60,729 bases of DNA, taken from the NCBI GenBank assembly GCA_035559815.1, contig DATMAT010000001.1, positions 1 to 60,729 of the forward strand. The letters run 5' to 3'. How positions within the stretch are numbered: the first letter of the stretch is position 1; every line of letters begins with the position of its first letter. This DNA is from Thermodesulfobacteriota bacterium (lineage in GTDB: Bacteria > Desulfobacterota_D > UBA1144 > Nemesobacterales > CSP1-2). The notes under the pieces were generated by a model that was not told the DNA's origin, ran no database searches, and worked only from the letters and a program-made list of their open reading frames with translations. Below, one piece after another: positions 36,226 through 60,729 of this stretch. A program made the position numbers and the translations under genes.

Positions 36226-36952
36226 ATGGAACAGGTCGGCACAGTGGCGAAGGAGACAGCAAAGATATTTCACCTGGACGATATCGAAGAAGCCCTTATG
36301 ATTGATTCTATGCCAAGAGAATACACTGTGGATGTGTTGATGCCCAATTATAAGGCTTTAACCGATAAGGAGTTGATTAGAAGGTTTACGGAAGATGATG
36401 ACGAGGAGGCGTTTAACGAGATCGTCAATAGATACACGGATACGATTTACCGTACTGCGCTCAGAATCATCAATAATCCTAGTGACGCCGAAGAGGTCCT
36501 GCAGGAGGTCTTTGTAACCTTGATAAAAAAGCTGGACACGTTCGGCGAGGAGTCAAAATTCTCTACCTGGTTATATAGAGTAGTGGTAAACACTAGTTAT
36601 ATGTATCTAAGGGCTGAGAGGAAAAAGAATGAAAGCGAAATGAATCTCCCGGATTACGTTTCTTATGACCAGTCGGGAAGGCTTAACGGAATACGAAATA
36701 AGGATTGGAGTTATGAATCTGATATGGCTCTTCATGAGTATGGAGAGAATGGAAATCATCGAGAATGCGATAAGTGAGCTTCCAGAGTATAATAGGGTAG
36801 TCTTCCTATTAAGAGACGTCGAGGGTTTAACTAATGAGGAAGTGGCAAAGGTATTGGGAATCTCTCTTCCCGCAGTCAAGTCTAGAATCCGGCGGGCAAG
36901 GCTATTTTTAAGAGATAAGTTGTCAGATTATTTCTATGAATGGAGAAAGTAA
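36226..36952 (+). pseudogene. ECF sigma factor gene broken by a single frameshift
   Basis: Starts at ATG 36226 behind TAAGGAG; an in-frame ATG 147 bp upstream is ignored. It encodes sigma region 2 (EEAFNEIVNRYTDTIYRTAL, NNPSDAEEVLQEVFVTL, KFSTWLYRVVVNTSYMYLRAERKK). Near 36747-36752 (GGAGAGAATGGA) the frame shifts by one base and ends at TGA 36776. In the other frame, region 4 is complete (ELPEYNRVVFLLRDVEGLTNEEVAKVLGISLPAVKSRIRRARLFLRDKL) and stops at 36952. Deleting one A restores the protein at 36747. Either an assembly/sequencing error or a fresh mutation; the sequence is otherwise well preserved. No -24/-12 element is seen upstream. Confidence 0.75.
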
Positions 36953-36957
36953 GGCAG

Positions 36958-57184: not shown

Positions 57185-57222
57185 TCTAGCAGAAACTGAA
57201 ATCAAAAAAGGAGGTGAACAAG

Positions 57223-57582
57223 ATGAAGGGAAAAACCTTTTTTATCCTCTTCCCAGCGCTGCTAGTCTGGCTCACCGTTTCATTAGCTGGTTCCGTTTTT
57301 GCAGGACAGGAAGAAGGAAAGAAAGTGACGGTGGAAGGTAACATAGTTTGCTTGATCCCGGATTATCAGAAGGGGACGGTTAACCCAGTGATCGCAACCG
57401 GGCCTTGTAATGAACTTCCACCACATCATCACCTTTTGGTGAGCAAGGATGGCAAGGTTTACACACTACAAGGTTTGGATCAGGGTATAAAGGCAATAGA
57501 GACAAATCCACACAGAACGAATGTGAAGATTACGGGTACGGCTCAGGAAAATCCAGGTGGCTGGGTTTTATATGTAGAGTAG
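57223..57582 (+). CDS. Small exported protein with HHH motif, unknown function
   Basis: 119 residues. The ATG (57223) lies 8 nt behind AAGGAGG; a GTG at 57214 is within that site and is rejected. Signal peptide (MKGKTFFILFPALLVWLTVSLAG, cleavage near VFAGQ). The mature domain: VEGNIVCLIPDYQKG, CNELPPHHHLLVSKDGKVYTLQG, IKAIETNPHRTNVKITGTAQ. Two Cys and the HHH run suggest metal or redox contacts, but the fold (OB-like) is uncertain. It is under a sigma-54 type promoter divergent from that of 56530-56862. Confidence 0.65.
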   Translation: MKGKTFFILFPALLVWLTVSLAGSVFAGQEEGKKVTVEGNIVCLIPDYQKGTVNPVIATGPCNELPPHHHLLVSKDGKVYTLQGLDQGIKAIETNPHRTNVKITGTAQENPGGWVLYVE

Positions 57583-59324: not shown

Positions 59325-59399
59325 TTGTCACTAAAAGTGGGTGTCTCAAAATGATGGTATAGAAACAATTATCTCTTCCCACTTGCTGGGGAAGCCTGT

Positions 59400-59640
59400 A
59401 CTGGTCCTGACGAAGGGTCTATGGTTCGACTGAGTTTATTCCTTCTCCGATTAAATCGGGGACCAGCTCAGGACAGGCTTTGAGCGCAGTCGAAAGGCTC
59501 ATGGTTCGACGGAGTTTATCCTGAGTTCAGCGAAGGGCTCACCATGAAGGCAGATCTGAAACTCGCAACAATACCATGCCCTTCACCCTGAGTCCTTCGG
59601 CTTTTCTCAGGATAGACTACGACTAAGGGTGAGTAGGGTT
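59400..59640. repeat. CTGAGC/TCGAAGG repeat cluster
   Basis: At least six facing copies, e.g. TCGACTGAGTTTATTCC, GCTCAGGACAGGCTTTGAGC, GCAGTCGAAAGG and CTGAGTTCAGCGAAGG. It separates the sigma gene from its decayed copy. Confidence 0.65.
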
Positions 59641-59802: not shown

Positions 59803-60057
59803 AAAATAAATCCAAAATCAAACTTTATTCGTATACAGGACGAAACAGGACTGAGAAAAGGGATAATTCAAAAAGCCCTGGCCAATTTTCCAGGATGAGG
59901 AGAGGTTTCGACAGAGATGTTGTGCCTGGGAGCCTGCGGATATAATCAAAATTATGAACAACCGGATAGGCCGGTCGGAACGGACAGAAAGACAGTCTAT
60001 CTGGATTTTATTAAGCTAAGAAATCTCATCGCTCCTTGCAAGGATATGCTGAAATAG
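59803..60057 (+). pseudogene. Decayed second copy of the ECF sigma gene, region-4 end
   Basis: In one frame the sequence reads KINPKSN...DETGLRKGIIQKALANFPG, a TGA at 59896, then a weakly alike tract (QPDRPVGTDRKTVYLDFIKLRNLIAPCKDMLK) ending at TAG 60055. It aligns throughout with KINHKSD..., TIIQKALDSLPDEQ, QPVGTIKTRIS and KLRKQIAPYMKQL of the gene at 58608. So it is a degenerate tandem duplicate of that gene; only the C-terminal third is preserved. The last codon abuts the ATG of the next gene. Confidence 0.75.
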
Positions 60058-60729
60058 ATGGAACACAAAGACGATTTTGAAGAACTGGTCACGCTCCACG
60101 CCCTTGGTGCTCTGAAAGGGGAAGAACTGAAAAAAGTTGAAGAGCACCTTAGAAATGGATGCAAGGCCTGCATGGATATCTTAGAGGAGACTGAATTAGC
60201 GTTATCCTTTCTTCCTTACTCTCTAGCCGATTACCCACTTTCTAAAAACCAATTGGGAAAGATTTTACGAAGGATAGATTCGGCTGAGATGTCCAAAGAC
60301 AGACCCTATACGCTTGACTTTGAAGAGATTTTCGACCGTTATGCCAACAAAGTATATTGGCTCGCCCTAACTTTGTTTGGAGAGAGAGCCGCCGCCGAAG
60401 AGATTGTGGAAAAGGTATTCACCAGAATCCGGGAGAGGGTTAGAAGATTTGAGGATGAAACAAAGCTCATCCAGGAGATTTATCGCCTGGCTGTAAATGC
60501 GGCTATCTCCAGACTTCGAAGACAGGATAAGAAAAGGATCGATGTTAACAACGTCTTGCCCCGATTTCAGGAGGACGGGCATCATCTAAGGGCGATAGTG
60601 GATTGGTCCCAGGAAGCGGATGGAAGTCAGCTCGAAAGAGAGTTTAGCAATGCCTTTGATTATCTTCCCTTAATAGACCGGGTGGTTTTAGTGCTGGGTG
60701 ATGTTGAGGGCATGTCTAATCGAGTTGTA
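60058..60729 (+). CDS. Anti-sigma (RskA-like zinc) domain fused to an ECF-sigma-like domain (3' end cut by window)
   Basis: The frame runs from ATG 60058 to the window edge, 224 codons without a stop. Residues 1-75: DDFEELVTLHALGALKGEEL...EEHLRNGCKACMDIL, the RskA/ZAS pattern, with zinc ligands His30, Cys35 and Cys38. Then from about residue 88: FEEIFDRYANKVYWLALTLFGERAAAEEIVEKVFTRI and LIQEIYRLAVNAAISRLRRQ match sigma region 2, and about residue 195 (SNAFDYLPLIDRVVLVLGDVEGMSN) matches region 4. Normal RskA proteins continue with a membrane helix instead. The ATG immediately follows the stop of the decayed sigma copy, as in a sigma/anti-sigma operon. Confidence 0.75.
   Translation, partial: MEHKDDFEELVTLHALGALKGEELKKVEEHLRNGCKACMDILEETELALSFLPYSLADYPLSKNQLGKILRRIDSAEMSKDRPYTLDFEEIFDRYANKVYWLALTLFGERAAAEEIVEKVFTRIRERVRRFEDETKLIQEIYRLAVNAAISRLRRQDKKRIDVNNVLPRFQEDGHHLRAIVDWSQEADGSQLEREFSNAFDYLPLIDRVVLVLGDVEGMSNRVV

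Follow-up and report, generated by a model that had tools for sequence, protein, structure and literature searches.

The fused reading frame and its neighbours

The window (the whole stretch of DNA analysed here, 60,729 nucleotides) corresponds to a single contig, C1; the genome measures 3.97 Mb and is assembled in 79 contigs. At its 3′ end lies an open reading frame, 60058-60729 on the forward strand, which begins with an ATG directly 3′ of a TAG at 60055 and is truncated by the end of the contig. Read across the window and a second contig of the same genome, C9, the gene order is STAS, intact sigK, repeat DNA, sigK remnant, fusion, HC2 and SEC (Table 1).

Table 1. Features at the fusion locus, in the window and on contig C9 (coordinates prefixed L003)
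Feature	Position	Strand	Evidence or remark
SEC, small predicted secreted protein	57214..57582	+	Paralogue of L003:651-1046, phmmer 2e-52
STAS-domain protein, 95 aa	58286..58573	+	Pfam STAS 3.5e-8; first gene of the presumed ancestral STAS-sigma-zfHC2 locus
SigK-like ECF sigma, intact, 217 aa	58566..59219	+	Pfam r2, r4 ~1e-15
Dispersed repeat DNA	59370..59640	+	54 genomic matches, counting itself
Decayed 3′ end of a second sigK gene	59803..60057	+	Abuts the fusion ATG
RskA-type anti-sigma domain, fusion residues 1-86	60058..60315	+	44-47% identity to the best RskA N-termini
ECF sigma half, fusion residues 87-224 (window part)	60316..60729	+	Pfam Sigma70_r2, r4_2; 47% identity to the L004 sigma
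zf-HC2 anti-sigma gene, 97 aa	L003:257-550 (contig C9)		3′ of the fusion
SEC gene	L003:651-1046 (contig C9)		3′ of the zf-HC2 gene

The intact SigK is 61% identical to the SigK of relatives in which this factor is paired with RskA, and no other RskA adjoins it. Only one other RskA-type domain was found in the genome, on contig C51, beside its own sigma gene. The sigK remnant aligns with SigK over 83 codons free of gaps (37% identity, E 3e-12); it has one internal stop and is without region 2. On the far side of the fusion, the zf-HC2 protein retains its CPDC motif and the form of its family. The two SEC copies are paralogues, so that the rearranged region has one copy on each side; for the copy in the window, neither Pfam nor NCBIfam gave a match over the cut-off. 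The repeat DNA is one among several intergenic repeat blocks. Scans for promoters and terminators gave signals not clearly above those of shuffled sequences.

C9 opens with exactly the 141 bases that close the window, and at the opposite end exactly 141 bases are common to contig C20, and to that one contig only; both window ends look like assembly-graph breaks (k = 141). Joining C1 and C9 gives a fusion protein of 256 aa terminated by a stop codon, with residues 1-224 encoded in the window and residues 225-256 on C9 (L003:142-240). The continuation past 60729 thus supplies the region 4 that the first-pass annotation could follow only in part, and Pfam recognises both Sigma70_r2 (1.5e-6) and Sigma70_r4_2 (6.5e-7) above cut-off in the joined protein. 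The domains and their order, with the anti-sigma part first and sigma regions 2 and 4 behind it, are supported as originally proposed. An AlphaFold2 prediction with the 224 aa of the fusion inside the window and two homologues reached a pLDDT of 40, too poor for reading.

The same annotation had named a frameshift in the assembly, joining two genes, as what would make the fusion spurious; the joined ORF contains none. An assembly artefact might be suspected because the assembly is in many contigs and the ORF reaches the end of one of them. However, the junction between the halves is in frame and lies ~400 bases inside the contig, the contig end falls within the sigma half, the two contigs agree there over an exact 141-mer, and the sequence beyond it fits the family as far as the C-terminus. 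Given an internal junction that keeps the frame and has beside it the same remnant-ATG arrangement as the sigK-rskA junction of relatives, an artefact is scarcely credible. The fused anti-sigma/sigma ORF is confirmed as real.

An RskA-type domain joined to a foreign sigma factor

Since Pfam zf-HC2 was only sub-threshold at the N-terminus of the fusion (0.014), the anti-sigma assignment is based on RskA homologues. Over residues 1-88, identity with the best full RskA proteins from this phylum is 44-47%, and the match stops just before the TM helix of these homologues. The His-Cys-Cys motif is retained (H30, C35, C38). The RskA_C domain, which scores ~1e-25 in both of the RskA relatives checked with Pfam (L045 and L035), is absent from the fusion by the same scan. 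A TM segment is likewise absent, the best 19-residue hydropathy mean being 1.08; the same measure gives 2.1-2.6 in all RskA relatives but L043 (1.44). The initial description of an RskA-like N-terminus without a membrane segment is therefore borne out on both counts. None of the seven sites invariant across all compared RskA domains is changed, and 4 of the 22 sites invariant in the SigK-paired RskA group are; judged from these sites, the anti-sigma half is normally conserved. Some matches from two genomes (G003 and G020) that extend over residues ~3-157 of the fusion belong to ordinary RskA proteins, not fusions.

The remainder of the protein, residues 88-256, is 47% identical to the ECF sigma factor of the L004 locus. 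In relatives, the genes corresponding to the two halves are unfused. The order STAS-sigma-HC2-SEC is found as separate genes in L006, L007 and L010, and STAS-sigma-HC2 in L004; in all four loci the STAS gene adjoins the orthologue of the sigma half. In L045-L052, rskA is a separate gene directly behind sigK, and its product has the TM helix and RskA_C. These matches indicate that the halves of the fusion derive from different sigma/anti-sigma pairs.

The end of the sigK remnant meets the ATG of the fusion as the end of sigK meets rskA in the relatives, which suggests that a sigK/rskA cassette entered a STAS-sigma locus. The first-pass annotation had noted neither this remnant nor an origin by insertion, nor the second anti-sigma gene downstream, which is on C9. 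We infer that the cassette was inserted between the STAS gene and the second sigma gene of a STAS-sigma-zfHC2 locus. There, rskA would have lost its membrane and outer parts, being cut just before the TM helix and joined to sigma region 2; either a deletion or an insertion could have brought the cytoplasmic RskA anti-sigma domain onto the second sigma factor in this way. If so, this one locus would show a membrane anti-sigma factor turning soluble and joining a foreign sigma factor, while the unfused ancestors persist in relatives. In five of the relatives (L046, L047, L048, L050 and L051) another ECF sigma gene lies directly 5′ of sigK-rskA, which indicates that stacked sigma genes are common in this phylum.

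A search for the same domain order, as the first-pass annotation had suggested, did not find it in any of the 57 further genomes examined from the phylum. Viral contigs gave no relative, and plasmids three weak partial matches, none reaching 80% coverage. The search of genome contigs returned two separate sigma genes only, in Methylomirabilota MAGs.

The sigma half: divergence, decay or retention

Among 18 ECF sigma factors compared, 24 sites are invariant; 9 of these are changed in the fusion, and at most 3 in each of the other members. Likewise, 21 of the 44 clade-invariant residues are lost. The sigma half evolves ~3 times faster than its sisters, with a branch length of 0.83-0.88 vs 0.24-0.37 on the single sister branches L004, L005 and L011. 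The residues lost include Q118, K127, the FSTWL stretch with Trp 140, and E223. In region 2, five residues invariant in 18/18 sigmas are substituted (Q118E, F137L, S138I, W140E and L141I), three of them (Q118, F137 and W140) being conserved residues of ECF regions 2.2/2.3. In the recognition-helix area of region 4 the changes are G229K, A234E, K236R, R238K and A242G. The sigma part had from the outset been described as lacking the region 2 Trp and having altered DNA-contact residues. Its degenerate state is supported, and the loss of the Trp is upheld, position 140 being E in the fusion and W in 18/18 relatives; the DNA-contact changes are partial, with the five region 4 changes just listed beside H240, R241 and R243, which are unchanged.

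These retained residues, together with N147 of region 2 and most of the C-terminus, could be taken to mark an active sigma factor whose changes in regions 2 and 4 have shifted its promoter specificity, the N-terminal domain being a passive leftover. However, that domain is the better conserved half, and the five region 2 residues invariant in every relative have become E, L, I, E and I. Because, in addition to this loss of near-invariant residues, the halves come from different pairs, a redesigned sigma factor is very improbable.

The first-pass annotation had also offered a self-inhibited sigma factor. In such a protein, the N-terminal domain would fold onto its own sigma half until proteolysis or the loss of zinc frees an active sigma. 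Both Pfam sigma domains are indeed recognisable, and fused anti-sigma/sigma proteins of such logic are known (PMC8999054). Three observations speak against this option: the halves derive from different pairs, the conserved residues of regions 2.2 and 2.3 are gone, and a separate zf-HC2 anti-sigma factor is still encoded next door. The first two make self-inhibition improbable, if less so than a shifted promoter specificity.

The main rival to a functional reading is that the fusion is recent, non-adaptive and heading for loss. Insertion of the cassette would have wrecked both rskA and the second sigma gene, and the frame would simply not yet have decayed. Consistent with this, decay is plain in the adjoining sigK remnant, and the intervening DNA contains dispersed repeats. 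The sigma half evolves fast and has lost nearly half of its clade-invariant residues. The fusion is known from a single genome, which also weighs against the functional reading.

On the other side, the frame of 256 codons has no internal stop. Neutral change of the observed size, along a branch that partly predates the fusion, is expected to introduce ~6 stops, and left none in only 0.1% of runs (P = 0.001). The normal conservation of the anti-sigma half also weighs against drift, as does the codon-position GC pattern, which is preserved in both halves. GC3 of the fusion counts against the functional reading, being ~0.45, at the low end of the genes of the window (0.39-0.66). In a codon model, omega is 0.20 on the sigma branch vs 0.08 elsewhere (2ΔlnL 3.3). 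Omega = 1 is rejected for that branch (2ΔlnL 11.3), which in part predates the fusion, and is not rejected for the shorter anti-sigma half alone. Taken together, we consider drift towards loss somewhat unlikely.

Possible partners and relation to known systems

The reading that we favour, with a probability of roughly 0.45, is that the fusion is a soluble anti-SigK factor whose degenerate sigma half has kept the ability to dock the zf-HC2 protein encoded downstream. Because the only other RskA-type domain found, on C51, adjoins its own sigma gene, the N-terminal domain of the fusion is the nearest candidate inhibitor of the intact SigK, which it would bind and inhibit as a soluble protein. The sigma half would have lost its promoter-recognising role. 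As HC2 adjoins that sigma factor in relatives, the sigma half is the natural HC2 target and might still dock this protein as a sigma mimic. Docking of HC2 could in turn modulate the amount of anti-sigma domain that is free for SigK, and the two circuits would thereby be linked. The earlier idea of a decoy or a regulator of the upstream SigK-like factor thus survives as the best-fitting reading, with the binding as a prediction.

The protein could also be a two-headed adaptor. One head would be a soluble anti-sigma domain acting on one ECF sigma factor, the other a degenerate ECF sigma bound by another anti-sigma factor, so that two sigma/anti-sigma circuits are coupled by partner exchange. We regard such an adaptor as unlikely. 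Should the fusion bind SigK as well as HC2, it would offer a natural link between two sigma circuits and, next to PhyR, another way to arrive at sigma mimicry.

Several known systems share parts of this design. RskA itself, the membrane anti-sigma-K factor, has the same N-terminal anti-sigma domain and the same position directly behind the end of sigK; the fusion lacks its TM helix and RskA_C, and carries a sigma factor in their place. Some ECF36 sigma factors begin with a fused anti-sigma part that has 3-4 TM helices and DUF2275 (PMC8999054). The anti-sigma part precedes the sigma part in both cases, but the fusion is predicted to be soluble, is RskA-type, has a degenerate sigma half, and shows neither a TM segment nor a DUF2275 match; DUF2275 was found in two of the phylum's genomes only. 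IutY (ECF243) and ECF48/52/53 also combine sigma and anti-sigma in a single chain, with a C-terminal membrane-bound anti-sigma part (PMC8999054), whereas the anti-sigma domain of the fusion is N-terminal. PhyR has a sigma 2/sigma 4-like module that does not act as a sigma factor, has a receiver domain, and was shown to bind NepR (PMC4598750). Both proteins would pair a sigma-like module, engaging an anti-sigma factor, with a regulatory domain, the binding being conjectural for the fusion; unlike PhyR, the fusion carries an anti-sigma domain and, by the Pfam scan, no receiver domain.

The first-pass annotation knew of no described family with this order. That is too broad in view of the N-terminal anti-sigma part of ECF36, and holds for the particular form seen here: no description of a soluble RskA-type domain before a degenerate sigma was found in the literature searched, a weak negative since the main ECF reclassification was not covered. 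We read anti-sigma/sigma fusions and sigma mimicry as already known, and the soluble RskA-type domain before a degenerate sigma factor as what is new here.

Two further genes in the window are worth recording. In anti-anti-sigma factors, the STAS domain usually carries a phosphorylated Ser at a defined position; the STAS protein upstream of sigK has N or E at this site (DENG), and may therefore lack phospho-regulation. At 36226-36954 another ECF sigma, broadly of the same family, is split: its regions 2 and 4 are in different frames that join near 36750, which points either to a frameshift in the gene or to a slip in the assembly.
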